This document shows, piece by piece, positions 2,305 to 62,556 of a stretch of DNA of 64,000 nucleotides. The stretch comes from Aphrocallistes beatrix (Eukaryota; Porifera; Hexactinellida; Sceptrulophora; Aphrocallistidae). The notes below the pieces were generated by a model. The model saw only the letters and a list, made by a program, of their open reading frames with translations. It ran no database searches and was not told the origin of the DNA. The stretch's first letter is position 1. Every line of letters starts with the position of its first letter. Location: NCBI GenBank assembly GCA_963281255.1, contig OY725501.1, positions 821,882 through 885,881 on the forward strand. The letters run 5' to 3'. A program made the translations under genes and the position numbers.

Positions 2305-2759
2305 CTGCATACAACACTAGTGTATTACAATAATGTTTTGTTTTGCTGCATATTATTTCTATTACTCATTTATAATACCTCACTTGACACAACACTAATT
2401 GCATAAATCATTATTTGGACGAGATGTCTTGTCTCGCGCCTGACTCGACTTCTAATTACAGAGGAGTGGAACACTTCATGAAGTTTTTCAATTTCCCAAA
2501 GATCGTGCTCTTCGTGAAAATGGTATTGAGCCATTCCAAGACGTGTGAATACTACCAGATCAACAAAATCCCGGGTGAGTGATTTCTGAAGTAATGTAGT
2601 TAATTTTTCTAGAATCATGCATATAGTACATACTCAAGTTGGGTAGAAACAATTGACTGAATTTAAAAGACTAAGAAAAAGTGCTGCCTTCCCCAAATTT
2701 AGTAAATGCAATCCTAGTTACTACAAAAACGTGGGCATAAGTACCTTTTTTAAAATTCG

Positions 2760-2969
2760 GATAAGTGCAATTTATCTAAACGTGCTCCAAATTAACATCG
2801 GGACATTTTGCCTCGCCTTTCCAACCTGACAAGCCCGCTGGTTGTCAGGTTGGAAAGGCGAAATGTAATTTTGGCCCTTAATATTTTCCATTAGTCAACT
2901 TCAGCCGGACTGTTAGCTTATATAATGGATAAGAACAGTGTAGACCAGAACTAAACTGTTGAGTTCTTG
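2760..2969. mobile_element. 210-bp insertion with a strong hairpin
   Basis: The segment is absent from copy B of the inverted duplication and is flanked by AAATTCG on both sides (2753-2759 and 2970-2976), consistent with a 7-bp target duplication. It contains a hairpin at about 2815-2861 (CGCCTTTCCAACCTGACAA paired with its complement around a short loop). Confidence 0.55.
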
Positions 2970-3040
2970 AAATTCGTTAATGGTGTTTAGAAAATGATCA
3001 ATGTGAATTGGGTAGGGAAGAATAGTCGTTCAACGACGAT

Positions 3041-3194
3041 CATAGGCGTAACTATTTTGTTTTTTTTCACGGTTAGCTGGGGTGGCGAGATTTGTAAACA
3101 TATATCAAACTAATGTGGCATGTCACCCCAAGTCAACATAACATTTAGGTCTGGGTGGCACGCTACCTCTGCTACCCCTAGAGTTACGCCTATG
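3041..3194. mobile_element. Short hAT-type MITE
   Basis: Ends are CATAGGCGTAAC and GTTACGCCTATG, a 12-bp inverted repeat. Flanks ACGACGAT and AAGACGAT differ at one base, as expected for an 8-bp hAT duplication. The matching position in the inverted copy (about 61215) lacks the insert. Confidence 0.7.
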
Positions 3195-3325
3195 AAGACG
3201 ATGTATCTGCACCCTCAGCAGAAATTTAAAGATTTATTCTGGCTCTTCCCGTACTAATATTATTCATTTGGCATGTGCTACTATGGAACTAGAACATTGT
3301 ACACTTCTAATAAAGTTAAGACCTA

Positions 3326-3803
3326 CAGTACCCGGACAAAAGTATTCGACCACCACGAAAACCTCATACAAATAGTATTAAAGTGGGTCTATTTATAATG
3401 GAATTTTTACTAAAACTGTAAGAAATATTTCATTTTTGATATCTAATTCGTAAACTACTATCCGAATTACCCATTTTTGAAACTTTCAACACAAATTCTC
3501 ATTCCCATGTAGAAAATTATCAACCTGTGCCACTATGCACCATGAATCGTCATCATATTTAATGGCCCTGACTAGAGACAAATAGCATCAGGTATAGGAG
3601 TTAGAATTTGTTTAACTTGGGAGTTAGTAATTGAGTTGAAGCTCTAAATTGTGAGTAATTAGAATGTGTAGATTACGAATTTGAAATCAAAAGTAGAGTA
3701 TCTCTTAGAGTTTGAGTACACATTCCATTGTGGATAAACCTACTTTAATACTATTTGTATGGCGGTTTTTTCGTGGTGGACGAATACTTTTGTCCGGCTA
3801 GTG
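3326..3803. mobile_element. Tc1/mariner-type MITE
   Basis: Long inverted ends begin CAGTACCCGGACAAAAG and CACTAGCCGGACAAAAG, extend about 70 bp, and are flanked by TA (3324-3325 and 3804-3805). No transposase is present. Related elements lie at 4670-4975, 9233-10049 and 54131-54920. Confidence 0.75.
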
Positions 3804-3974
3804 TATATATAATGCACTAGTATTGAAACAAGAGAATAGTAAACTGACTAAATTCAAGAACTAATTTAATATATTCTTTGTTTATTTAGCCGACTTCACA
3901 GACTGTAGAAGTCCGGAATGTGTGAATATATCCTATTGAAACAAGGCCGGAGTGTGGTTGTTCCCTTATGATGC

Positions 3975-4380
3975 CTCAAGTCTCAGGTCTCAAGTCAAGT
4001 CAAGTATGTCCCTCAAGCTAAGTCAAGTCTGTCTCTCAAGCTAAGTCAAGTCTGTCTCTCAAGCTAAGTCAAGTCTATCTCTCAAGCTAAGTCAAGTCTG
4101 TCCCTCAAGCTAAGTCAAGTCTCTCTCAAGCTAAGTCAAGTCTCTCTCAAGCTAAGTCAAGTCTATCTCTCAAGCTAAGTCAAGTCTCTCTCAAGCTAAG
4201 TCAAGTCTGTCCCTCAAGCTAAGTCAAGTCTGTCTCTCAAGCTAAGTCAAGTCTGTCTCTCAAGCTAAGTCAAGTCTCTCTCAAGCTAAGTCAAGTCTGT
4301 CTCTCAAGCTAAGTCAAGTCTCTCTCAAGCTAAGTCAAGTATATCTCTCAAGCTAAGTCAAGTCTGTCCCTCAAGTCTCA
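3975..4380 (+). repeat. Minisatellite, unit about 18-23 bp
   Basis: About eighteen tandem copies of CAAGCTAAGTCAAGTCTGTC with variable TCTCT spacers. The inverted copy near 60560-60800 carries a shorter, more diverged array, so copy number has changed since the duplication. Confidence 0.9.
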
Positions 4381-4385
4381 ATATT

Positions 4386-5549
4386 GTGATTAACTATTCT
4401 TTTGATATTTTGTATGTATAAGTATTAAATAATTCGACTATGTGCATTAAAAACCAAATAATATATCTCATTTCAATTGTTCTGATATAATAGTTAGTTT
4501 GTCAGGGTGGGTGAATGCCTAAATTGATGGAAAATTGAAATATCTACAATTAGTACAATATCAAAATTATTGGTTTTGAAGTATTTAACTAATCCATGGT
4601 ACTAATTTTTGGGTGAGTGCCATTGCCTTAGTATATAGAATGCTATGGCTACAGGTTAATTTTTAATCATTCATTCCTAACTTTTTGTAATTATCAATAG
4701 TGCCACCTTGTGCCACATACACCCATTTTGACCACTATACATGATGGCAATGAATTACCTATGGTGGCTCAGGCTGATAAGATTGTTCACTGAGTTGAGT
4801 AATTTATTAGTTATGTTTAAATATGACTAATTCGAATGTGTAGATTTTGAATCTGAAATCAGATTTTTAGTATCTCTGAATTTGAACGTATTGCCCTTCA
4901 TGAAAAAATCCGATTTAGTATTATTTGTATGGGAAAGAATCAAGTGTTGAAATATTATTGTCCGGTTGGTTATATATTCATCTCATTTATAACTTGATAG
5001 TACAATTTGTCACCTACATATCTTCCAATTAGTTTTTCTAACCATTTCTTTGCATTTTAAAATAGTGAGAAAGAACGATATTATGTATTATGGTAACAAA
5101 TTAAATGCTAAATGTCCAAGAAATTGGTTCAAAAAACGATTGTTAGAAATTGGGTATCAGAAAACGATTTCGATTGTACTGTATTTGAAAATAAACTTAA
5201 TTGAGTAGGAGAAAATCGAGTGAAAGAATTTGTACCTGTTACAGTTATGCATTAAGCTATATATTTGATTAGGCGGAACAGTAAAAAGTGAGTAGTATAT
5301 TTATCTTGCTATTTATCTTGGAAAAATATATCGTGCTATATTTGAGACCTATTTCACGAATATTGGCAAAAAAGCAGTTTATCAATGAATTTTGAAGTAG
5401 AGGGATAATAATTATTAGTGAGAAGGTTGAATCTCAAAATTTTGGACTAGGGATGAATTAGTGGATGGGAATTATTAGTAAACCACAACAATTAGTATGA
5501 AATTTGCATTGTATAAGCTCTACAAACTTTCAATTAACCACATACCAGT
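4386..5549. other. Gene-free AT-rich stretch with MITE remnants
   Basis: No gene is seen. A terminal fragment of the family described at 49606-52733 lies at about 4595-4652 (TGCCATTGCCTTAGTATA..GAATGCTATGG). Sequence at about 4670-4975 resembles the middle and right end of the Tc1-type MITE at 9233 (ACCACTATACATGATGG and TTGTCCGGTTGG). Confidence 0.5.
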
Positions 5550-21000: not shown

Positions 21001-21049
21001 AGTCTGATGTATACATGGATGTGAAGTTAGCAGCACGTTCAGCAGCGAA

Positions 21050-22170
21050 AAGTGAGCAGGGTATAATTGATTATAACTTGGCAGTTCCTCATAGGATCTT
21101 GATCAAATTTGAAACAGAACATCACGAGCGAGGTAGTTTTGTGCTATTTTAATATCTAATGCCTCCCAATTATAACCACATGACAATGACGATGCAAATT
21201 TGATGAAATTTCTATAGGATTTCTGTATAGCTCAAAGTGAGCAGGGTATAACTAGTTCTAGTTTCACAGTGCCTTGTACGATCTCGATAAAATTTGAAAC
21301 AGAACATTATAAGCGAGGTAGTTTTGTGCAATTTTAATATCTAACGCCTCCCATTTATAACCACATGACAATGACGATGCAAATTTAATGAAATTTCTAT
21401 AGAATTTCACTATAGCTCAAAGTGAGCAGGGTATAACTAGTTCTAGTTTCACAGTGCCTTGTACGATCTCGATAAAATTTGAAACAGAACATTATGAGCG
21501 AGGTAGTTTTGTGCCATTTTAATATCTAATGCCTCCCAATTATAACCACATGACAATGACGATGCAAATTTGATGAAATTTCTATAGGATTTCTGTATAG
21601 CTCAAAGTGAGCAGGGTATAACTAGTTCTAGTTTCACAGTGCCTTGTACGATCTCGATAAAATTTGAAACAGAACATTATGAGCGAGGTAATTTTGTGCC
21701 ATTTTAATATCTAATGCCTCCCAATTATAACCACATGACAATGACAATGCAAATTTAATGAAATTTCTATAGGATTTCACTATAGCTCAAAGTGAGCAGG
21801 GTATAACTAGTTCTAGTTTCACAGTGCCTTATAGGATCTTGATCAAATTTGAAACAAAACATTATGAGTGAGGTAGTTTTGTGCCATTTTAATATCTAGC
21901 GCCTCCCAATTATAACCACATGACAATGACGATGCAAATTTAATGAAATTTCTATAGGATTTCACTATAGCTCAAAGTGAGCAGGGTATAACTAGTTCTA
22001 GTTTCACAGTGCCTTGTAGGATCTTGATCAAATTTGAAACAAAACATTTTATGAGTGAGGTAGCATTATGTTATCTTAATATCTAACACCTCCCGATTAA
22101 AACCACGTGACAATGATGATGCAAAAAATGGACATTTCTATTTAACTCACTATAGCTAGTGAGCAATGTG
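21050..22170 (+). repeat. 185-bp tandem array, left arm
   Basis: Six units start with AAAGTGAGCAGGGTATAA at about 21050, 21236, 21421, 21606, 21791 and 21976; a diverged seventh starts near 22158. Each has ATTTGAAACA.AACATT, GCGAGGTAGTTTTGTG and CCACATGACAATGACGATG. The right arm is the reverse complement. Confidence 0.95.
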
Positions 22171-22249
22171 CAACTATTGAATTGATTACTGACTAACAAT
22201 ATAACACATTTAGATTATTCTATAGCTTCTACTTTCACAATACGCTATC

Positions 22250-23020
22250 CTAATGTATGTCAAGGCTAATCCTTGTATAAGTAAATATCGTTAACCAACA
22301 TTTTAATCCAAAATGATCAATTAATTTGGTTTGTGATCCAATTTGTATGCTTCCAACTTCTTTCACCTGTATTACTGGTTGAAAATGATCTCTAAACAAT
22401 CTCAGGTAAATCCTAGTCTCTGTCAGGTTATGAGAAGAATGTTTCTCATTGAACCCATACGCTGAAAATTTCATCTAACATTTGCTTTCATCTTTGTAGA
22501 CAAAAATGTCAGTACCTAGGATCTGTGCTGCTAAGAATATTTCTAAGTCAGTACCCCAAGATCCTAATCGGTCCATCAAGCTTATTTTTAGATATTCTTC
22601 TATTGTGTTGCAACGCGCTTCGGGTAGCAAATCATTTCGAGCGTTACAATACTTCGAGCATGTTTCTCTATATTCTCCTTTCATTTTTTGTATTAAGAGC
22701 CCTCTTATTTGTTGGTGATAGCTATCTGTCCCTGCAATTACGTAAGACAGTGATCTAAATAGGCTATTGCCATCTGCTGGTGAGATTCTGTTCTCTCTAG
22801 AAGGTATTAGCTGTCGAATTTCTAGGGATTTTTCAATAGCTTCGTTCTCATACAAAACACCCTTTGTATACGTCATTTGCAGAAATTTGCATTTTTCTTT
22901 CTGCCAGCTTTGTATTACTGGCTTGAAATTTCCGTGATAAAAAAATGTAATCCCTTCAACGGAGATAGGTTCGTCATCAAGACTATCATCATAATGCATT
23001 GCTCCATTTTTTCCATTCAT
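22250..23020 (-). pseudogene. OTU-domain protein, inactivated
   Basis: A 181-codon frame (23020-22475) contains an OTU-type fold signature: SPADGNSLFRSLSYVIAGTD, then a helix (YHQQIRGLLIQKM) and LGSWGTDLEIFLAAQILGTD followed by IFVYKDES. A stop at 22477-22475 interrupts it where a Trp codon would fit. The next frame (22474-22250) continues the domain with TRIYLRLFRDHFQPVI, which carries the expected His. OTU proteases remove ubiquitin using Cys and His. Here the Cys of the usual DGNC is Ser86, so catalysis is not expected. The relative at 59281-59995 keeps GNCLF. The upstream coding part (23021-23910) is frame-shifted. Confidence 0.75.
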
Positions 23021-23910
23021 CTTTTCACCTGCGTATGACAGTATTTTTAAAAGATAGTTGGGTACTGACTATGTCTTGCCACATGTCATTGTTAAACCTG
23101 GATTTTGACATGTGTTAGGATTTTACTTTTCTGAGTACATCAGTTGAATGCAAAGAATTAAAGTTACCATGTTTCGCAGCAGTAAAAATGTCAGGTTCAG
23201 TGAACAGAGAATAATGGAAATTTGAAACACTTTTATTCTGAGTTGTTCTGATATAGTTTCCCTTCTCTCGCCTGCTAAATGACGACTTTGTGATACTTGA
23301 TTCGCGAAATGATCTATTGAAATTGTATTCTGGTTCTAATTTGTTCTTAATTTCAAAAAACGATTCTTAACCATTCATGCACAGGGATGGTGAAAATGCT
23401 GTTAACAGCTCACAATTGGCTGTTAACAGCTACAATTTCCAGTCTAATATAAATAGATAGACAGATATAAATTAAAATTTTGCGATAGCTGTTCACAGCC
23501 ACAATTTTGCGTTGGCTGTTAACAGCTTAGCTGTTTCCATCCCTGTTCATGCATTATTAAATGAATCTCGCCTTGTTCAATCTCATGGGTTGAATCATTC
23601 CTATTTGATAAGTTAGCATCATCACGAAAATTATTTTCTGCTAATGGACACGATATACTTACAAAATCTGATAAAACTTCACACGGTAGATCAGAAAATT
23701 TAATACTTATAGGTAAGGATGTAGTGATAAAATTTGTTTGAACCTGTGATTGAATGTTGTATCTGTTGTTGCGCCATATATTCATAAGCTTTGCTCGTAG
23801 TTCTAGACGATTTCGACCATATACCATTTTGCGAGCTTTCCCAAAAACCAAACGGATTACGCCAATTTCTAGTCATGTTAAGATTTTCCAGTACAGTGAA
23901 TTTACGCAAT
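23021..23910 (-). pseudogene. Upstream remains of the OTU-element gene
   Basis: Minus-strand frames at 23909-23545 and, after the hAT insert at 23382-23544, at about 23330-23040 look like decayed protein sequence, including SRFNNDMWQDIVST near 23100. Copy 2 has a matching RFTDDMWQDIIVT near 57700. Stops and frame changes occur throughout. No domain other than the downstream OTU is recognised. Confidence 0.45.
23382..23544. mobile_element. hAT-type MITE
   Basis: Ends CAGGGATGG and CCATCCCTG with an exact TTCATGCA duplication (23374-23381 and 23545-23552). The middle is made of GCTGTTAACAGC palindromes. It interrupts the coding remains of the OTU element. Confidence 0.85.
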
Positions 23911-24195
23911 TCAAATCTCGATAAAGCATTTAGTATCTTCGAAGGTAGATTCTGACAAATGATAAATTTGTTATCACCATTTTCTAAAATTTTAAAAAAA
24001 ATCTATTCAGCTGTGATGGAAACCCTAAGAATAAAAAGTGACCATTCGAGTAATCTGCACACATCAAATGAACCAAATCGATTTGTTAACAATGAATTGT
24101 ATAAGTAGCAAATAGTGATTTTAGATAGTTTTATCATTTAAATATTACTACAAGTATAGTATTTTGAAAATATCATCATTCGAAACCATATTACA

Positions 24196-25008
24196 CAAGC
24201 ACGCTTCGTTTGCTTGCGCTGCGCGGGTTGTGGACACTGCGTGTCCGCAGAGTCGCCCTCGGACGCCTGGAGTTACTCAATCTAACATATTTTGGAATTT
24301 TTTTATATAAATATCGTAAACAAAGGTCAACGAATAATTTCTCATATGGATCCGAAAATATAATATTCGAAATCTAGAGCACTAAAAATCCCATGTCAAC
24401 CGTTGGAAGCTAGTCTCTAACCCATTTTTGTGATTTGTTTACTTTATGTATCTATTGTAAACAAAAGTAAACAGATTGATCGTCAAATTTACTCGAAAAT
24501 ATGATATTCGAAATCTACACCCCTGAAAACCCCATGTCACCCGTTGGAAGCTAATCTCTAGCATTATTTTCAAAATTCATCAAATGGTGTGACAATATGT
24601 ATATAAAGGTGTGAAAATATGCACATAATCTTTTTTATTGCCATACACTATAATGCATTTAAGACATCAAGCATAAGTTGCTTTGAAGTATTAATAACAA
24701 TGACGATCTATTTATTGTAGTGTCGTACTTGTACAATGATTTCTATTGTGATAGTGTAGTCATATATTTTGTATAGAAAGGTGTGAAAAATTGTTTTACA
24801 TTTTTTTTGCAGAGGTGTGGAAATTTCGCTTAGATCTTAGAACTTAATCCTAGATTCATCATTTGACACCTACATGCCAATTTTCGTATTTCTACGACTT
24901 GCCAATTCTTCAATCAATTCGGACAAACAAACAAACAAACAAACAAACAAACAAACAAACAAACAAACAAACCAAAAAAGATCCTAGCATTTTAATATAT
25001 AAGATTTT
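24196..25008 (+). mobile_element. R3 repeat
   Basis: It begins CAAGCACGCTTCGTTTGC with the GGACACTGCGTGTCC hairpin and ends with an (ACAA)n run and CATTTTAATATATAAG, like R2. The middle differs from R2 (paired blocks with TGTAAACAAA and CCGTTGGAAGCTAGTCTCTA). Fragments lie at 39411-39730, 42770-43070 and possibly, reversed, at 35610-35790. Confidence 0.8.
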
Positions 25009-25192
25009 ATAATTATTGTATAATTATTATATAATTATTATATAATTATTATATAATTATTTTATAATTATTATATAATTATTTTATAATTATTATATAA
25101 TTATTATATAATTATTATATAATTATTTTATAATTATTATATAATTATTATATAATTATTATATAATTATTATATAATTATTCAAGCGCGCT
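25009..25192. repeat. 11-bp satellite (TATAATTATTA)n
   Basis: About 16-17 tandem units, some with TTTTA for TATTA, sit exactly between the end of R3 and the start of R2. Confidence 0.9.
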
Positions 25193-25770
25193 TCGCTTGC
25201 TTGCGCTGCGCGGCTTGCAGACTCTACGTGTCTGCAGATTTCCCCAGTGGGCGCTTGCGGATATTAGAGAAACAATACGTCGCTTTCCTGTTTTATACTA
25301 AGTACGCTGGATTGTCATTTGTCTACGGTTACATTTATGCAATCAGAACGGTAGTAGAATAATTGTTGTTAACAATCAAATAATAGACTCAAATAGCAGT
25401 ATTCAATCATTTATATGAAATAGAATCGTGTGAATGGCATTATAAAAGGCTGATAATTGATTGGTTCTCACATAAACCAATTAATTTCAATCACAAATAG
25501 TCCTTTTGATTGTATGCATAAGTCACTACCATTTTATTCCAATGTATTTGCATTATAAAATAATCGAATTTGATTGGTCAGCACATTTTGTCACCTATCT
25601 CAGCGAGGTACAAACATTTCGCTTAGATCTTCGAACTTAATCCTAGATTCATCATTTGACACCTACATGCCAATTTTCGTAGCTCTACGACTTGTCAATT
25701 CTTCAATCAATTCGGACAAACAAACAAACAAACAAACAAAAAAATCCTAGAGTTTTAATATATAAGATTT
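25193..25770 (+). mobile_element. R2 repeat, full-length copy
   Basis: It starts CAAGCGCGCTTCGCTTGC, has a GACTCTACGTGTCTGC hairpin, the R2 body (GAGAAACAATACGTCGCTTT, GTCACCTATCTCAGCGAGG) and ends with an (ACAA)n run and GAGTTTTAATATATAAGATT. It is the most complete R2 here, 578 bp, and has no coding frame. Confidence 0.85.
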
Positions 25771-26049
25771 ATTTTCGCATTGGTTAATCACAAGTGATAT
25801 CAATTAATTAGTTATATTGTATTAGTACATATTCATCATCATCCGCGTAAAACTAAGTTTTGGTTTCACTGGATGTTAATCTTAGCTCTGTGGTGAATTC
25901 ATCAAATTGTTGGACAATAATCGTAACAGGTTTGACCAAGACTCGAAATCATCGCATTAAACTGTATGGATTCCAGGTTTCCTCTGTACATTGAAATTCC
26001 AGAAGATCGGAGGCACTATTATTAATTTGTAAAATTTAATATTATGAAT

Positions 26050-27540
26050 TACCACTTATAGTATATTCTATTCTAATGTTCTGTTTCAAATTTGATCAAG
26101 ATCCTACAAGGCACTGTGAAACTAGAACTACAGGGTGATCCAAAAGTTCTGCAACAAATTTTGCTGAACTATTATACTTGTACACATGAGGATCTAACAT
26201 CCGACATTTCGTTTTATTTGAAAATTATAAGGGTTATTTCAATTATTTTGCAATCCAATTGCCTGTATTTCCTAATATATTTGCTAAGGTGGATCATAAA
26301 TGTTTGTGTGTCTAGCAAAAAGAGAAAAATCAAAAGAAAAAATCTCGAATGCTTGGTACATTCTATGAATATACTTTAACAATTGTTGTTCTTATTGGTG
26401 ATTCCCGGTCAATAAACCAAAAGAAATAGTCATATTTTAGTATTTTGAATTAATAACTGACTTTAGGAAGATAAAAATAGTGGTAGATTCCATAGATGCA
26501 AACCGATTTAAAGTTAAACTAAATTATCAATGAAGTAGAATTTATAGTTGCAGAACTTTTGGATCACCCTGTAGTTATACTCGGCTCACATTGAGCTATA
26601 GTGAAATCCTATAAAAATTTCATCAAATTTGCATCGTCATTGTCATGTGGTTTTAAGTGGTAGGCGTTAGATATTAAAATGGCACAAAACTACCTCGCTC
26701 ATAATGTTCTGTTTCAAATTTGATCAAGATCGTACAAGGCACTGTGAAACTAGAACTAGTTATACCCTGCTCACTTTGAGCTATAGTGAAATCCTATAGA
26801 AATTTCATCAAATTTGCATCGTCATTGTCATGTGGTTTTAAGTGGTAGGCGTTAGATATTAAAATGACACAAAACTACCTCGCTCATAATGCTCTGTTTC
26901 AAATTTGATCAAGATCGTACAAGGCACTGCGAAACTAGAACTAGTTATACCCTGCTCACTTTAAGCTATAGTGAAATCCTATAGAAATTTCATCAAATTT
27001 GCATCGTCATTGTCATGTGGTTTTAAGTGGTAGGCGTTAGATATTAAAATGGCACAAAACTACCTCGCTCATAATGTTCTGTTTCAAATTTGATCAAGAT
27101 CGTACAAGGCACTGTGAAACTAGAACTAGTTATACCCTGCTCACTTTGAGCTATAGTGAAATCCTATAGAAATTTCATCAAATTTGCATCGTCATTGTCA
27201 TGTGGTTTTAAGTAGTAGGCGTTAGATATTAAAATGACACAAAACTACCTCGCTCATAATGCTCTGTTTCAAATTTGATCAAGATCGTACAAGGCACTGC
27301 GAAACTAGAACTAGTTATACCCTGCTCACTTTAAGCTATAGTGAAATCCTATAGAAATTTCATCAAATTTGCATCGTCATTGTCATGTGGTTTTAAGTAG
27401 TAGGCGTTAGATATTAAAATGGCACAAAACTACCTCGCTCATAATGTTCTGTTTCAAATTTGATCAAGATCCTATAAGGCACTGTGAAACTAGGACTAAT
27501 TATTCCCTGCTCACTTTTCGCTGCTGAACGTGCTGCTAAC
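26050..27540 (-). repeat. 185-bp tandem array, right arm
   Basis: Reverse complement of the left arm. Unit junctions (CTGCTCACTTT..GAGCTATAG) recur at about 26769, 26953, 27138, 27322 and 27507. Units within this arm resemble each other more than those of the left arm. The first unit is split by the MITE at 26131-26571. Confidence 0.95.
26131..26571. mobile_element. Tc1/mariner-type MITE in the array
   Basis: Ends CAGGGTGATCCAAAAGTTC and its complement, flanked by TA (26129-26130 and 26572-26573). Removing it with one TA restores the satellite unit (CTAGAACTAGTTATAC). The 95-codon open frame across its left edge is chance. Confidence 0.85.
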
Positions 27541-27779
27541 TTCACACCCATGATGTATACTTGGTATGCATATGATTGTTACACCTTTAAATCTAACCTG
27601 AATGGTTTCATCTAAAGATTAAAACATTTGAATTTTTTGACGCACTCAATAGTATACATAATTACAATTGGTAAAAATCGATAAATTTGAAGATAATACA
27701 ACCAGCAAAGTAACCTCACAAATAATGGTTGTAATTTACGAAAATTGATACCATAACAAAAAGTTTGGTTTTAGGGGTC

Positions 27780-28090
27780 CCCAACAGGGTTACCGTGGGA
27801 ATGGGAATCCCCATACCCATGGGATGGGAATGGGAATGATGTTTTCCCCCGTGGGGAACCCCATAGAATTCCTATGGGGATTCCTACAGCGTTCCTATAG
27901 GATTGCTATAGGGATCCATGGGAATTCCCATAGGGTCCTATAGGAATCCTCATGGGGATTCCCACAAGATTCCTATAGGGATTCCCATAGAATTCCTGTG
28001 GGAATCCCCATGGGGATTCCCACAGGAATTCTATGGGAATGGGGTGGGAATGGGAATTGAAACTTCATTCCCACGGCAACCCTGGTCCCC
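27780..28090. repeat. Low-complexity GGGAATCCC repeats
   Basis: Degenerate tandem copies of GGGAATCCCCATAGG and ATTCCTATAGG words, partly palindromic, bounded by GTTACCGTGGGAATGGGAAT and its approximate complement ATTCCCACGGCAACC. It may be a small inverted-repeat element. The 27551-28500 interval otherwise shows only a Tc1-MITE end (28146-28200). Confidence 0.7.
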
Positions 28091-35163: not shown

Positions 35164-37296
35164 CTTCTAATTCAATTAAAAGATAAATATATAATATACG
35201 TATAGGGTTTCCCAGTGTGTACTTTTTTCGAATCCGTCGTAGGGATATTAAATTAGCATGTAGGTGTCAAGGGTATCGGTCACTTCGTACCCAATACTCT
35301 TTCAGATTAAGGTATTCAATATGAAATAGGTCCAAAAAAGTATTCATTGTAAACTAAAACAAAAAACTATCTATTCTGAAATAGGTCCGTTCATGTGGCT
35401 AACTGCTCTTAGTAACTGGGACGTGGAGATCTCCTTGTCCTGATAGCGTCGCCAAAGTTGAAATACGAAATCGTGTTTTAAATTGTGTTTTTATAAATAC
35501 GAAATTGTGTTGTAATGAGTACGAAATTGTATTAGGTACGAAATTGTGTTAGGTACGAAATTGCAATTAAGTACGAAATGGTTTAGATGCGAAATGACTT
35601 GTATTCGGTGTCAAAATGCGTCTACGATTTTAAGTTCGAATATCTAAGTGAAATTTTCACATCTCTATACGTTATATGTGGCTGCACTCCTCCAATATAT
35701 ATCATTGTACGACACTAGAATAAAAGGTCGTTGTTAATATTATGTCACAACAATAATTTCTGCACATATGTTAATTTCGTTATAGTGTAGCAATCAGTGA
35801 TGTACACAGGGGCCCAAGAAACTTTCCTATACCATGCATAAACCTATCATAACTCGGGGCGGCGAGAATACCCCACTTTTCAGGAGTGTTAAGATTTTTT
35901 ACCCCTGCAAATTCTTTTTTTAACTCTAATCTTAGTAAGTAGGGCACTATTTAGTTGATCCTGAATAAATTCATTTTTTACGTTATCCATATACTGCTCA
36001 GTGTTCATTTGTATCATTGTAACAAATCACTAGGTCTCATCTTCTAGCCAGAATCATCCCTAATTCCGTAAATAATGTAAATCCTTTCTTAAATATTTAA
36101 AATATTCACACAAAACAGTAAGCAGCTTCGGTAAATTTTAAATTGCTATGAGCACAAAGAGGCTGCTTCCGTTTCGGTTACATAACTTAAGAAACTTGAA
36201 ATTTAACTTTTTACACTTACCATCCAATTTGCATAGTTTTTCGCCATTGACGCAACATATTTGTAGGTTGATATATGTGCGGGTGCAAGCCCCCCTAGGA
36301 CCCTATTAAACGCTCCTCCCCACTTTTACAAAAAAAAAAACTAGGAAATATTGAACTTACGATACAACTAGACACGATTACAATTGACACTATCATCATT
36401 GAATATATTGGGATTGAGGAAATTTTCGTTATAATCTAGATTTCGTTATCTGGATGTAACAATTATCCATCTGGAGACAACTCTTGATCTAGAAAAGTGA
36501 AAAGTACTCGTACAATGTGTCATAGATTGTTTGTATAATAGGGGGAAAGCGGAATAAGGCTGAATATTCAACACTATAATAAGGCCGAATTTTCAAAACT
36601 AGAATAAGGTGGAATTTTCATTTTGGATCTAGAGGAAGAATGGTTTCTAATTTGTGAACAAAAGAATGGATGGTCCATTGTGAGCATTTTTTTGTTTGTT
36701 GGGAAACAGGGGAGATTTTAAGGGTTTTTGACATGGAATATTTTTAAAATTCGATGTGTTTTTAAGCAAAATGTATATTCAACTTGTTTGTCACTTATTT
36801 ATTTCAGTATTACGCACATATCACTCGACTCATCCAGTTGTGAAAATTTGGCCCTATTCCAGTTGTGATAATTCGACCTTATTCCAGTTTGAATATTCGG
36901 TCTTATTCAGTCAACCATAATATGATATTAACGAATTGATGCAAGAAACAGTCAGACGGATAGAGCTAATCTCATCATAAGTTCTAGTCCCAGACAGGGC
37001 CGTAGCCAGTCAATCCGATCCGGGCCTGCGGAGGCCCTGCAGCAGCCCAAAACGAAAAATCTACGCGTCCTGGAGGGCCCTTCTTTAATGTAAGATATGT
37101 ATTCTATTAATACAAATAACATTTGAAACAACACATTAAATCAACTTGTGGAAGCAAAGTACTGAAACTCAAAGTGAGGGCTAGTGGGAGATAATAATAA
37201 AGCGACACCTTGTAGTTATGTCACTTTAAAGATGAAAAAAGCGGTCAGAAAGGTATTCTGATTAAAATTGGATTCCCAATAAGCACAAAACATATA
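35164..37296. other. Gene-free stretch with several repeats
   Basis: At 35465-35590 a degenerate TACGAAATTGTGTTA unit repeats five or six times. At 35610-35790 sequence resembles reversed R3 (TTAAGTTCGAATATCTAAG). At 36540-36912 an inverted repeat is built of GGAATAAGG.CGAATATTC words. At 36990-37080 GC-rich AGGGCCGTAGCCAG resembles a hAT left end. No gene is seen. Confidence 0.4.
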
Positions 37297-55268: not shown

Positions 55269-56573
55269 CCAAGTGTTCAATAAGTTCGCGGAATTTATAT
55301 GAAATTCAATGAGCAGGGTTAATGTAATTTAACCATTAGTAAAGCTATCAAATCAAAACTTGTATATGCAATTTCAACATTCTAACTAGCATACTTTTTA
55401 TATTATAGCCAATTTAGTCTAGTCATTTTCTCTTTTTTATTTTTCGATGGAAAATTTGAATAATAGGGATTTTCGAGCGATAATGTTTTACAACTATAAA
55501 CGTGGATTAAACGCTGCGGAGTGTACTGCTGAGATGTTTTCTGCTTTGGGGGAACTGGCACCAACCAAAACAACAGTTTACAAGTGGTACAGCCGATTTC
55601 GTTTGGGTTATATGTGCCTGGACGATGAAGTTCGAACCGGACGCCCGATTACGGCGGTCACTGATGAAAATATCGTCAAGGTGGAGGAACTGGTCAGAGA
55701 AGACAGACAAATTACTATCCGTCAGTTAGTTCATGATGTGTCAGTATCATCGGGAACAATGGAAACAATCCTACACCATCATCTTGGTCTAAGAAGGGTT
55801 TGTTCCAAATTAGTCCCACATTTGCTAACTTTGGAACAAAAAAACCGTCGGATCCAATTTTGTCACTCCATGTTACTGAAGTACTCGAAAACAGATTCTC
55901 GGCGGCATTCAGAAGTAATAACGGGTGATGAAACATGGATTTACTTCTATGACATGCGAACGAAGCAGCAGAGATCGAAATGGATCTTTGAAGATGAGGT
56001 ACCGGACACAATTCCAAAACAATTCATGGCGGTCGGCAAGCGAATGTTCGCAATTTTCTTCACCACAAGAGGTCTTCTTGAATTTGTGATGCTTCTTGCG
56101 AAGCATACTGTTACCTCAGCTTGGTACACCGAGATTTGCCTTCCAAAAGTGTTTCAAGCGGTGGAGAGGTTGAGACCAAAGTCCGGGGTCCGTGGGATGA
56201 AATTTCATCATGATAATGCTCCAGCACACACAGCAGGAAAGACAAAGGAGTTTCTCAGTCAATCAGGGTTAGAAATGATTGAACATCCTCCCTACAGCCC
56301 AGATCTTGCCCCCTGTGACTTTTGGCTGTTCCCAAATCTAAAAAGACACCTAAAAGGCAGGCGTTTTGAGTCAGAATCCGAGCTAATCGCTGCTTTTTTA
56401 GAAGCAGTGGAGTGCATACCAGCAAGTAGCTATTCTAAGCTATTTGACATGTGGCTACACCGCTGGCAAAGGTGTATTGATGCTAATGGGGAGTATTTTG
56501 AACATTTAGAACAGTAATTTGTTAGTTCACTGTAGTCAAAACATATTTTTCCGCGAACTTATTGAACACTTGG
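55269..56573 (+). mobile_element. Structurally intact mariner element
   Basis: It is 1305 bp, with 25-bp terminal inverted repeats starting CCAAGTGTTCAATAAGTTCG at both ends, flanked by TA (55267-55268 and 56574-56575). It carries an uninterrupted transposase frame. The intact frame and matching ends suggest a recent insertion. Confidence 0.95.
55447..56517 (+). CDS. Mariner transposase, full length
   Basis: 356 residues without stop or frameshift. Residues about 5-115 form the paired helix-turn-helix DNA-binding region (KTTVYKWYSRFRLG at 41-54, then DDEVRTGRP). VPHLL at 123-127 replaces the usual WVPHEL linker motif. The DDE/D domain has D161 in TGDETWIYF, D256 in HHDNAPAHT and D291 in YSPDLAPCDFWLF, giving exactly 34 residues between the last two, the mariner D34D pattern. 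It cuts and pastes the element by binding the terminal repeats, acting in the nucleus. Length matches the family. It sits 178 bp inside the left repeat. All catalytic residues are present, so activity is possible but not shown. Confidence 0.95.
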   Translation: MENLNNRDFRAIMFYNYKRGLNAAECTAEMFSALGELAPTKTTVYKWYSRFRLGYMCLDDEVRTGRPITAVTDENIVKVEELVREDRQITIRQLVHDVSVSSGTMETILHHHLGLRRVCSKLVPHLLTLEQKNRRIQFCHSMLLKYSKTDSRRHSEVITGDETWIYFYDMRTKQQRSKWIFEDEVPDTIPKQFMAVGKRMFAIFFTTRGLLEFVMLLAKHTVTSAWYTEICLPKVFQAVERLRPKSGVRGMKFHHDNAPAHTAGKTKEFLSQSGLEMIEHPPYSPDLAPCDFWLFPNLKRHLKGRRFESESELIAAFLEAVECIPASSYSKLFDMWLHRWQRCIDANGEYFEHLEQ

Positions 56574-57386: not shown

Positions 57387-57881
57387 TCTGAATCTCGGAA
57401 TTGTCATTTTATAACAGCACAAGTGATATGTAAATTTAATAGTATCTGTGGAAGTATTAGCTGAAGGTAATCTTTCAAATGAACATTTTGATCATATAAC
57501 TGCACATAGTCGCAATGTATCAGATGATCAACGAGAAGAATTAGGAAAAAAGATAACTTGCAGTTCTGCAATAAATTACCATTATGATCTCTTTAAAAAT
57601 TCACAAGATTTAACAGTTGCAAGCATGGAAATTTGAATTAATTACATTCACAAGAAGTTATACAGAAGGTAAAGTCACAATACATGGAAAAGCAGCGATT
57701 CACTGATGATATGTGGCAGGATATAATTGTAACCATAGGCGGCGATCCTCGGGGGCAAGGGGGGCGATTGTCCCCCCAATAATTTCTAGAAGGGACGAGG
57801 TCTGTTTTGTTTTCGCCCCCCCCAATAATATCTGAAGGAGGCGAGTATTTTCGCCCCCAAAATTTATTATCTACACCAACT

Positions 57882-59275
57882 ACTTAGGAAAAGTGAAGCG
57901 TGTCCGCCCACCTTGCTGAAAGGCATCTTGTTGAAAGACATTTTGCAGAAAGACATCTTGCCGAAAGGACATTTTGCCGAAAGACATCTTGCCGAATGCA
58001 TGTGGTTTAATGATTACTTATTATTACAATGAGAATCAGGCAAGTACAGTATCAAGCAAAAACATAATGAATCAGAGCAAGAGTGTTTAAAAATAACTAA
58101 TTAATTTGACGGAATAAAGAATAAATGAATTGTAATGTTGTTTATAAACAAACAATAAACCAGTTTAAAACCCCATAAATAGCTCGTAATTATTTGACTA
58201 AATATTATCCAAATATGGAACTAACTTCAACAATTTTCAGAAGAAAAAAGTTAATATATGATGGTTACATATATGTCAAGGATAAAGACTCAAAGGATTC
58301 GACCTATTGGCGTTGCTAGAAGAGAGGCTTATGCAATAGTCGTATGAAAACACATAGAGCAAACGAATCAGTACATCGCCAAATATAAAACAGAATTTAC
58401 GTACAGTAAAATTTTCTCTACCCTGAAGGAGCGTAATCCATCATTACAGCCTGAAACTCTTATGATTGATTTTGAAAGAGCTAGTCTAAACGCCCTAAAA
58501 GAGAATTTCCCAACAGCTGAACTTCAGGGATGCTTTTTTCACTTTAGACAAGCGATTTGGAGACAAATCCGGGGCCTCGGATTTCAACATCGCTATCAAA
58601 ATGAAGACGAATTTGCAGTGATTATGAAGCAATTTCGGGCCTTAGCGTTTCTTCCGGCTATTGATGTAATTGCAAGTTATGAAGAACTTATCGATTCACT
58701 ATCTGATGAGCTAGTTGATGACGATTTTCTCCATTATTTTGAGAAGACATGGATCGGTTTAGAACATCATGGAAGACGTCGCCCTTTATTCTCAATCGAA
58801 CTATGGAACGAACGCTTCCACGGACGAATAATTCTGTAGAGGGTTGGCATAGGGATTTCGATATTAGAATAAATACAACTCATCCTTCTGTCTCCAAACA
58901 AATAAAAATTATTATGGAACAGAGTAATAGTGAAATTACGCTGGAAAGAAGCGGACATCAACTGCCCCAATCAAAGAAGGAGTACCTCCAATTAAACAAG
59001 CGTGTAGAGAAGTTGGTTGATGAAAATATATACATTCCACATCTAGAATATCCGCGCGGCATATCACAAAACTTATCTTTCTAATATTTCTTTTTCTTGT
59101 TATTACTTCTTAACTCTTATAATAAACTTATTCCAATTATGAACTAGTTAATGCGACACTTAGTTGTTCATTATGATTATTACAATTTGATATTCAATGG
59201 CTTTCGACACAATGTACTTCAGCGAGATGTCCTTTCGGCAAGATGTCTTTCGGAAAGATGTCCTAGCACTTACGC
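57882..59275 (+). mobile_element. Internally deleted Mutator-like element
   Basis: Inverted ends are made of repeated GAAAGACATCTTGCC / GAAAGGACATTTTGCC words (57918-58008 and, reversed, 59205-59265). Between them lies a broken transposase with a FLYWCH finger. It sits inside the OTU gene of the surrounding element, between its DMWQDI part and its OTU domain. Confidence 0.6.
58235..59084 (+). pseudogene. FLYWCH-MULE transposase remnant
   Basis: A FLYWCH-type zinc finger is readable at about 58235-58360 (LIYDGYIYVK.., STYWRC, then a stop). After a deletion, 58462-58839 reads IDFERASLNALKENFP with GCFFHFRQAIWRQIRGLG and FLHYFEKTWIG, the conserved C-terminal half of the MULE transposase domain with one catalytic Asp. 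A frameshift near 58820 moves the rest (RTNNSVEGWHRDF) to another frame ending at 59084. The N-terminal catalytic Asp and much of the domain are missing. It cannot be active. Confidence 0.8.
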
Positions 59276-59280
59276 TTACG

Positions 59281-59995
59281 CAGAATATAACAAATAATGA
59301 AAAAATGGTAGCAAATCCACTAAAAAGGCCCAAATTTTAAAACCAGTAGGTAAGATTTTAGGTATTAAACGAAATCCAATTATTGAAAAGCAGACAAAAT
59401 CGATTATTCTTAAGAAAGACCAGTCGTCTTCAAAGAAGATGAATACCTCAGCACCTGTTATCGTTAGTTGTATCAATAGTGAAGTTTCAGGTGATTCTTC
59501 TCCGCTTGATATTACAATGCAAGAAGTTACGTATTATGATCACGGTGACTTCTCTCCAGTTAATCAATTTGGTAGAGAGAAAAGTGTAAATTCTTACAGT
59601 TAACATGCGTGTGGTATATTTACGAGAATGAATCAGCGGATAAAAATTCGCGTTAAGGCCTTCGAAAGAAAAAAGGATTTCTCCTGAGGGAAATTGTTTA
59701 TTCCGGTTAATATCATATGTTAAAACTGGGAGCGATCATTATCACCAAGAAATCAGAGAAATAATGGTTCAAATATGATAGGAAGATATAGAGAAGAATG
59801 CACTAAGTATTGTTACACACAAAATGACATACTGTTAGGCGGAGTTTGCTGTTCAATCGAACAATATTTACAGAAGAGCAAAATAGATCGTAATGGATCC
59901 TGGGGCACAGATCAAGAATTATTTATTTTCGTCTTCGTTTTCGTCTATCGTGATTCCCTATCCTCATGGATTAAGGTTGGTGTTTCCTCCCAGAA
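59281..59995 (+). pseudogene. OTU-domain protein remnant, catalytic Cys kept
   Basis: Coding pieces in shifting frames match the protein at 22250-23020. VTYYDHGDFSPVN (about 59525) corresponds to ITFFYHGNFKPVI. RISPEGNCLFRLISYV (about 59675) corresponds to RISPADGNSLFRSLSYV but keeps the Cys of the OTU active site. YREECTKYC and GSWGTDQELFIF follow. Several stops and at least two frameshifts are present, and the His-containing end is not readable. Upstream coding (57448-57735, including RFTDDMWQDIIVT) is cut off by the MULE insertion. Confidence 0.6.
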
Positions 59996-60130
59996 CTAAC
60001 TCAAAAAGTTTTCATTATTTTCTCCTGAATTTTTTGTGGAAACTGTTCTCGATGAGTTATCTGCAAAAATACACTTTTCGGGAGCTCAAGAAGCAAGAAA
60101 AAATTATTTTTTTTCTCAAATCACCTAATT

Positions 60131-60544: not shown

Positions 60545-61703
60545 TAGTAGTACTTAACTTCCAAAAATGACTTGACTTAGTTTGAGAGACAGACTTGACT
60601 TAGTTTGAGAAACAGACTTGACTTAGCTTGGAGACAGACTTGACTTAGCTTGAGACAGGCTTAGCTTAGCTTGAGAGACAAACTTGACTTAGTTTGAGAG
60701 ACAGACTTGACTTAGCTTGAGACAGGCTTAGCTTAGCTTGAGAGACAGACTTGACTTAGCTTGAGATAGACTTGGCTTCGCTTGAGAGACAGACTTGACT
60801 TGAGGCGTCATAAGGGAACAATCACACACTCTGGCCTTCCAATAGGATATAGTCACATATTTCGGACCCCTACAGCATGATGAAGTTAACTACAAGTAAA
60901 TAAACAAATAATACAAGTATTATTAAATTAGTCCTTGAATTTAGCAAGTTTAGTTTACTATTATCATGTTTCAATACTACTGTAGTGCATTATATAGAGA
61001 TCTTAGCTAGATTACTTGTAGATAATGAACAGTTTATACAGTGAAAAAAAGCTTTGGTAGAATGTCAAACCGTGACGTAATACATGTGCAAAATGCCTCA
61101 AGTATACAATGTTCTAGTTCCATAGTAGCACATGCCAAATGAACAAGAATAGTATGGGAAGAGCCAGAATAAAGTTTAAAATTTCTGATAAGGGTGGAGA
61201 AACATCATCGTTAAAATGACTATATTCTTCCCTACCCAATTCACATTGAACATTTTTCAAACATCATTGATGAATTTCAATATGGTTCTTATGCACATGT
61301 TTCTGGAGTAACAAGGAAAGGTAAACACTTTTTCATAATCTTTTAAATTCAGTCATTTGTTTCTAACAAACTTGAGTATATATGCATGATTCTAGAATAA
61401 TTACATTACTTAAGTCTTAAGAAACCACTCACCTTTGGAATCTTGTTGTTTTGGTAGTCTTCACAGGTCTTGGAATGGCTCGATACCATTTTCGCGAAGA
61501 GCACCATCTTTTGGAAAGTTAAAAAAACTTCATGGAGTGTTATACTCCTCTGTAATTGGAAGTAAAGCCAGGCGCGACACAAGACATCTCGTCCAAATAT
61601 TAACTCATGCAATTAGTGTTGTCAATTGAGGCATTATAAATGAGTAATAGAAATGATATACAATAAAACAATACAAGTGTAATACACTAGTGTTGTATGC
61701 GAA
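60545..61703 (-). repeat. Large inverted duplication, copy B
   Basis: Reverse complement of 2305-4385 without the insertions found there. It starts with a GACTTAGCTTGAGA minisatellite (60560-60800) and ends at ATACACTAGTGTTGTATGC. A plus-strand frame at 61435-61629 corresponds in position to the minus-strand frame at 2370-2618, but in a different reading frame. Confidence 0.8.
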
Positions 61704-61932: not shown

Positions 61933-62556
61933 CAGGGTTGAAACCGAATAGTTGATTATTCGGTTTAATTAACCAAATATTATTTGCAAATAATTGATAT
62001 TTGATTTGTAACCAAATATCATTATTTGGTATTCGGTTGGGAACCAAATAATTTGGTCAACCGAATATTTGGCAACCAAATAATTTGGTCAACCGAATAT
62101 TTGGTCAACCGAATAATTTGGTCAACCGAATATTTGGTCAACCGAATAATTTGGTCAACCGAATATTTGGTCAAACAAATAATTTGCATGCTTTCCCAAT
62201 ACAATAACACGTTCTTACATGAGGTGGTCCGAACACAAATAAATCTAATAGACCTACTTATACTTGATTATATTTTTGTATAAATATTTATATAATAGAT
62301 AAAAATTTGTGCAAAAATATAATCAAGTATTATTTGGTTAACCAAATTATTCGGTTGACCAAATATTCGGTTGACCAAATTATTCGGTTAACCAAATTAT
62401 TCGGTTAACCAAATTATTCGGTTGACCAAATTATTCGGTTGGGCCATTATTCGGTTAACCAAATTATTCGGTTTGACCATTATTCGGTTAACCAAATTAT
62501 TTGGTCTGACCATTATTCGGTTAAAATGGTATTTGGTTGAAGCGGTTTCAACCTTG
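61933..62556. mobile_element. hAT-type MITE with inverted ATTCGGTTAACC arrays
   Basis: Ends CAGGGTTGAAACCG and CGGTTTCAACCTTG, flanked by CTTTATTT and CTTTAGTT (7 of 8 match). Tandem AATTTGGTCAACCGAATATT units (62035-62185) recur inverted at 62325-62530. The open frames across them are repeat artefacts. Confidence 0.8.

Follow-up and report, generated by a model that had tools for sequence, protein, structure and literature searches.

A core-deleted copy of a satellite-ended DNA transposon in the sponge Aphrocallistes beatrix, with intact relatives that join an OTU protease domain to a putative DDE-type transposase core

In the hexactinellid sponge Aphrocallistes beatrix, we analyzed a stretch of 64,000 nucleotides (contig OY725501.1, positions 821,882 to 885,881 of the forward strand; assembly GCA_963281255.1), referred to here as the window. 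It contains an element of 6,537 bp, located at positions 21015–27551, with arrays of a 185-bp unit in inverted orientation at both ends. A first-pass annotation had described this element as Foldback-like and mobile, without a transposase, and carrying an OTU-type gene as captured cargo. Our analysis indicates that it is very probably an internally deleted, non-autonomous copy of a cut-and-paste DNA transposon, whose intact kin fuse a putative DDE-type core to an OTU protease. The evidence comprises the ends of the element, its target site duplications, an empty site, relatives with a fused frame, a deletion shared by seven copies, and conserved residues of catalytic type.

The left and right arms of the element were 92.9% identical across 981 bp. 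Its two ends finish in matching inverted tips (ATGGRTGTGAAGTTAGCAGCACGTTCAGCAGCG), as had been claimed, each 34 bp long and located at 21015–21048 on the plus strand (ATGGATGTGAAGTTAGCAGCACGTTCAGCAGCGA) and at 27518–27551 on the minus strand. The left array consists of six full 185-bp units (21049–22157, plus strand), and the right array of five full units in inverted orientation (26593–27517, minus strand), with a 60-bp piece of a sixth unit at 26071–26130, cut off by a nested insertion at 26131–26571. The initial count of six or so units per side was thus accurate for the left array, whereas the right one has five full units and a split piece. The element is flanked on both sides by the target site duplication GATGTATAC (21006–21014 and 27552–27560). 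This had been read as a 10-bp duplication, but T27551, the right-hand base that would supply the tenth match, already belongs to the inverted tip as its final base; the duplication is therefore 9 bp long. Palindromic short units such as CCATAGGAATTCC run at positions 27868–28030, adjoining the element.

Further copies were sought in the 100.5-Mb assembly (28 contigs). The COX1 gene of this assembly has AGA where Ser is usually found and ATA where Met is usual, suggesting that the invertebrate mitochondrial code is in use; taken alone, this code would suggest a bilaterian invertebrate. When the first 240 bases of the element's left end were compared with the genome at the DNA level, 164 matches were obtained, and both tips were present in 13 of the 20 stretches fetched. 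In the set of two-ended copies (n = 14: the window copy, L009, L012–L014, L016, L018–L024, and L026), a perfect duplication of the same size, 9 bp, flanked 12 and differed in sequence from copy to copy. Full-size array units varied in number among these copies, from 2 to 9 on the left and from 0 to 5 on the right. The tip pattern (20 bases, with no more than two mismatches) occurred 178 times in the genome, versus once for the reversed pattern. When tip pairing was counted on the 100 tips listed out of the 178, 28 plus-strand tips had a facing minus-strand partner within 12 kb (two of them sharing one partner), and there were one divergent and four parallel cases. Moreover, the joined flanks of the copy L013 matched positions 35607–35299 of the window across the junction, with 89.6% identity over 337 bp, and window 35299–35607 is an unoccupied version of the L013 insertion site. 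The same tips elsewhere, the duplications, and the empty site bear out the initial view of a mobile, Foldback-like element with inverted tandem-repeat ends, including the expectation of further full copies with duplications of 9–11 bp. The repeat in which L013 sits contains a 17-bp minisatellite. Miniature tip pairs of the ACGAGTGTGAAGTTAGCAGC type, 1.3–1.7 kb long (e.g., C8:2271779–2273123 and C10:1261050–1262735), were also observed and are likely miniature non-autonomous relatives.

An OTU protein search of the genome identified an open frame of 1,041 amino acids at five loci, and a search with the core showed that the same five loci were identical across 531 amino acids, with no stops. The idea that a longer relative might encode a transposase as well as the OTU protein was therefore well founded: five near-identical copies carry both a transposase-like core and the OTU domain in one frame of 1,041 codons. 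The intact elements L020, L021, L022, and L024 have target duplications and are 99.8–99.99% identical to one another, with L021 shorter by one unit of exactly 185 bp. L023 has a nested insertion inside its left array, within which a frame looks transposase-like by eye, and has no duplication. The transposon family is thus genuine, and its intact copies look recent; its autonomous member is approximately 6.66 kb long, with one main frame. Along that frame (P0001), an N-terminal part precedes the core, in which D389, D464, C509-S-A-H512, and E695 are located, and the OTU domain follows at approximately residues 855–1025. D389, D464, C509, H512, and E695 were invariant in all 10 aligned frames, two of which (L037 and L045) are closely related to each other. 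The sequence C509SAH512 represents the C/DxxH motif between the second D and the E, as defined in PMC10045372 (here and below, citations refer to the accessible portions of the papers). The same motif occupies a helical insertion domain of ISCth4, which belongs to a family resembling the Mutator transposases, and is reported to be important for catalysis there (PMC7780238); the AlphaFold models of the sponge protein contained helices between D464 and E695, predicted with fair confidence. From these conserved sequence features, we infer that the core is a DDE-type transposase.

When the intact copy L020 was used as the reference, the window copy lacked element positions 2553–3926 and 4235–4460. 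The core (amino acids 355–775) corresponds to L020 positions 2659–3921 and hence falls fully inside the first deletion, the junction of which is at 23013–23014 of the window. Both deletions are common to seven copies (the window copy, L009, L011, L012, L013, L014, and L017), and it is because of these two deletions, shared with six other copies, that the window copy has no transposase. The lack of a transposase noted in the first-pass annotation is thus true of the window copy, but not of the family. Copies at different sites have inherited both deletions together, which is the pattern expected if they spread in trans after the core was lost. The OTU frame of the window copy (22475–23020, minus strand) still matches the Pfam OTU domain (E = 4e-7), but it is a defective remnant of what was the C-terminal domain in a transposase-OTU ancestor and not the intact gene that had been supposed: compared with the intact copies, C893 is replaced by Ser, there is one extra codon, and a stop precedes the catalytic His. 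The catalytic Cys codon was lost in eight of 14 aligned copies, encoding Ser in the window copy and L011 and Gly in L009, L012, L013, L014, L017, and L025; Cys is retained in L015, L016, L018, L019, L026, and L028, and L027 lay outside the coverage at this codon. All seven core-deleted copies have lost the Cys and contain stops or indels. The window OTU sequence had a nonsynonymous ratio of 0.26 (from 8 and 8 changes), and this low level of nonsynonymous change probably predates the deletion. We conclude that the window copy is non-autonomous, that it was probably moved in trans, and that its OTU is dead.

The transposase-OTU fusion has been kept in families with as little as approximately 32% identity, and the OTU catalytic residues D890, C893, and H1019 were invariant in 8 of 8 families, which argues in favor of the purifying selection on OTU that had been raised as a possibility. 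The OTU domain is therefore kept under constraint over long divergence and decays in non-autonomous copies. Because intact relatives fuse OTU to the tail of the transposase-like protein, the OTU gene belongs to the transposon's own machinery, and its description as captured cargo did not hold. Target duplications of 8–9 bp were also retained in the diverged families checked, and two of these families retain homologous arrays with units of 186–187 bp. In L037, whose frame is 58% identical to that of L020, the units are 187 bp long and the duplication is GAAGAGGAG; L038 (49%) combines units of 186 bp with a duplication of 8 bp identified by eye; and in L040 (32%), a unit of 321 bp is doubled on one side and the duplication is GTTTTTGTT. 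In L039, the ends are cut or are part of another repeat. Among ten more tip pairs, seven had perfect 9-bp duplications and two had duplications with one mismatch; in the remaining pair (L038), only three of nine bases were identical, but 8 bp matched perfectly by eye. The 185-bp unit is homologous to the units of both L037 (score 117) and L038 (score 41), for which 500 mononucleotide shuffles reached no more than 31 and 33, respectively. The similarity between the L037 and L038 units was weaker (score 27, reached by 10 of 500 shuffles). The best-conserved stretch of the unit lies around AAATTTGAAACA...GAGCGAGGTAGTTTTGT and is a candidate binding site.

Several results weigh against the interpretation of the window element as a deleted member of a transposase-OTU family. 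Seven of the 20 fetched stretches did not show both tips, two of the 14 two-ended copies (L016 and L023) had no target duplication, and an empty site was found for only one of 13 joined flanks when these were compared with the window and the loci fetched. Among 21 OTU loci with ≥80% identity (hand-picked from 150 match rows, with pieces of one locus merged and an 80% piece inside L014 at C17:1089852 left out), listed tips occurred on both sides of at least 13, on one side of five, and on neither side of three. For 27 core loci (taken from the 28 best-scoring of 95 match rows, with one at 39% identity dropped), the corresponding numbers were at least 15, one, and 11. These tip-flanked counts are lower bounds, because 100 of the 178 tips were listed and some families (L040) carry other tips, and when points were drawn at random from the genome, 0.2% of them were flanked on both sides by listed tips; nevertheless, some of the OTU and core loci may really be without ends. 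No transposition event was observed. The core had no Pfam match in 10 frames, and an hhalign comparison of the core with six Mutator-like element (MULE) proteins of the same genome gave a probability of 0.1%, although this comparison is weak because three of the six are near-identical. The one 1,041-amino-acid frame tried had no NCBIfam match, and searches of the PDB with the core as the query (phmmer and a profile search) matched OTU chains only. The mean predicted local distance difference test score (pLDDT) of the AlphaFold models was 45.5 for the core alone and 52.8 for the full-length protein, in which it was good mainly in the OTU part. In the full-length model, the DDE and CxxH residues all fell in stretches with pLDDT <50, so the DDE (RNase H) fold is treated here as presumptive. 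The VIA-align rows cover almost only residues 834–1032, and the absence of a transposase row there is therefore uninformative; a scan of viral contigs with the alignment of the protein gave 37 pattern matches, none of which was confirmed.

Other explanations must be weighed against this one. That the inverted satellite arrays came to surround an unrelated OTU gene by chance, through a segmental inversion, is scarcely credible: its sole support is the lack of a target duplication in two copies, and it is ruled out by the excess of tips over the reversed pattern, the facing tip pairs, the recurrence of these ends and duplications at many loci, and the empty site. A mobile element without a transposase, whose OTU gene was acquired from the host as useful cargo, is very improbable. 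Although the OTU frame is the only frame of at least 150 amino acids in the window element, OTU lies in frame with the transposase-like core in the intact copies, the fusion persists across the most diverged families, and the OTU sequences of the seven core-deleted copies are the ones without the Cys and with stops or indels. For the window copy, the decayed OTU and the shared core deletion rule out the capture of a host gene.

The place of the family among DDE transposons is a more balanced question. Rehavkus is a Repbase group that is treated as MULE or as an outgroup of MULE. The chances are about even that the sponge family belongs to the Rehavkus group proper (Mutator-like order), in which OTU would not yet have been reported. 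This assignment is favored by the 9-bp duplications and by the satellite in the inverted termini of Rehavkus-1_TC (PMC10218199), and also by the one ORF, the minisatellite, and the 9-bp duplications given in Table 1 of PMC6446971. On the other hand, a PHD finger is tabulated for Rehavkus (PMC6446971), whereas none of the 10 frames here had a PHD match, some of these frames being partial, with the 5' exon undefined. The tabulated inverted ends are 26–400 bp (PMC6446971), and those of the sponge element are longer if the arrays are counted. A separate, undescribed DDE lineage of the C/DxxH group, in which inverted satellite ends and 9-bp duplications arose independently, is plausible but somewhat improbable. 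It would accord with the missing Pfam and NCBIfam matches of the core and with its lack of profile similarity to the six MULE proteins of the genome, but little weight attaches to a lack of matches in profile libraries, and the duplication size and array architecture fit Rehavkus and Foldback elements.

For a cut-and-paste transposon of the kind preferred here, the transposase would recognize the 34-bp tip and repeated sites within the 185-bp arrays, the two ends would be brought together, and the element would be excised and joined to its target with a 9-bp stagger, generating the 9-bp duplication. The OTU domain might act on ubiquitin conjugates at the transpososome, the target chromatin, or the repair site, for example by shielding the transposase from degradation. 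Binding to the array DNA, the chemistry of the transposase, and any role of OTU are all presumptive at this stage. In the lineage of the window copy, the core would have been deleted and the OTU would have decayed, with intact copies spreading the element in trans by using only its ends. More speculatively, the family may represent a distinct, undescribed DDE transposon lineage whose transposase is obligately fused to an OTU deubiquitinase and whose inverted ends consist of satellite arrays with a unit of 185–187 bp, approximately one nucleosome repeat, kept across diverged families; such ends could be read as positioned nucleosomes, with OTU acting on ubiquitinated chromatin or on the transposase. 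We consider this extended model unlikely, and we mention the closeness of the unit length to the nucleosome repeat purely as an idea.

Beyond the deletion junction of the window element, a leftover of the frame upstream of the core (23014–23325, minus strand) is followed by a leftover of the N-terminal coding part and the 5' region (23546–24195, minus strand), and the element's 5' non-coding part lies at 25760–26068 (minus strand). A nested insertion of other repeats, consisting of an ACAA run, an 11-bp AT minisatellite, and dispersed repeats, occupies 24196–25759, and its flanks overlap by 8 bp, which suggests a duplication. It lies near reference position 5180, where L009 also has an insertion and L012, L013, L014, and L017 have none. 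The insertion at 26131–26571, which splits the innermost, incomplete right unit, was delimited by eye as a terminal inverted repeat element, flanked by TA and with CAGGGTGATCCAAAAGTTCTGC at its inverted ends; we take it to be a mariner-type miniature inverted-repeat transposable element. A second nested insertion of variable length, also with flanks overlapping by 8 bp, was observed at 23382–23545 (reference element 4513–4520), at the same place in the window copy, L009, L012, L013, and L017, but not in L014.

The window also contains other elements. Positions 57456–57740 and 59290–60000 contain a relic of the transposase-OTU group, L043-like by eye (L043 has an OTU match at C15:881374–881835). 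The relic is split by a MULE insertion with a PF10551 match at 58381–58548, the ends of which are 15-bp repeats in inverted orientation (57912–57996 and 59212–59264). Inverted pairs of short tandem arrays at 62042–62186/62329–62524 (17/33-bp units) and 36552–36620/36833–36908 (25-bp units) are possibly small foldback elements; a simple scan detected no 8–10-bp duplication at the other inverted arrays in the window. Arrays of a 23-bp unit, in opposite orientations and 56 kb apart (3988–4375 and 60569–60801), have a similar flank on one side. A mariner-like transposase frame of 356 amino acids without stops lies at 55447–56517, with matches to HTH_48 (2.3e-12) and DDE domains.

With five near-identical intact copies, a natural set of non-autonomous copies, and diverged relatives combined in one 100-Mb genome, the role of ubiquitin proteases in eukaryotic transposition becomes testable. 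The retention of the satellite unit length and of part of the unit sequence along with the transposase also bears on the seeding of satellite DNA by transposons.

The closest described kinds of element are the Foldback/Rehavkus-type Mutator-like transposons, and the element works like them. With the Foldback elements Tetris (D. virilis), Tm1 (root-knot nematodes), and FB/NOF, it shares long composite inverted ends, tandem units variable in number, and duplications of 8–10 bp. The Tetris units are approximately 220 bp long and, unlike the family here, no coding copy was found (PMC4079207); Tm1 has units of 13–15 bp and duplications of mostly 9 bp (PMC3169594). The accessible portions of these two papers do not mention OTU. 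As in Rehavkus, there are 9-bp duplications, one main frame, and tandem satellite monomers in the inverted termini (185, 187, and 186 bp in three families here); Rehavkus-1_TC of Tribolium is 9.5 kb long, with a 164-bp satellite that is generally arranged in runs of five and eight monomers (PMC10218199). OTU is likewise unmentioned in the main text of PMC10218199 and PMC6446971, as far as accessible. The duplication size also fits the 8–11-bp range of the Mutator superfamily (PMC6446971). Nevertheless, the Pfam MULE domain PF10551 was not matched by any of the 10 frames (E ≤ 1), and because the core matches neither this domain nor the six MULE proteins of the genome, the element is not filed as a MULE. 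Proteases of this general kind are known from other transposons. Helentrons are elements of the rolling-circle type and lack inverted ends and target duplications of this kind. Some of them resemble the sponge family in that an OTU cysteine protease is encoded by an animal DNA transposon (PMC6431247). In Ginger1, as here, a transposase and a C-terminal OTU (or Ulp1) domain occur in one protein, and its authors propose that such proteases take part in transposition, for example via repair (PMC2836005). Ginger1 differs in its Gypsy-integrase-like core, CCGG/CCGT duplications, and inverted ends of 44–270 bp (PMC2836005); there was no integrase among the Pfam matches of the 10 frames here, and the duplication is 9 bp long, not CCGG/CCGT. 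Ulp1 Mutator elements similarly tie a protease of ubiquitin-like proteins to a Mutator-type transposase, but their protease domain is distinct from OTU and linked to SUMO (PMC2836005). A literature search that did not cover Repbase or most subscription papers found no description of a MULE- or Rehavkus-type transposase-OTU fusion with such ends, nor does the accessible part of a MULE survey mention OTU (PMC13359780); the combination may be recorded in Repbase. The suggestion of an undescribed system therefore stands only in the sense that domains are newly combined in a transposon of a known kind: what is new is the joining of satellite-ended, Foldback/Rehavkus-type ends with an OTU-tailed transposase, each of which is known separately.

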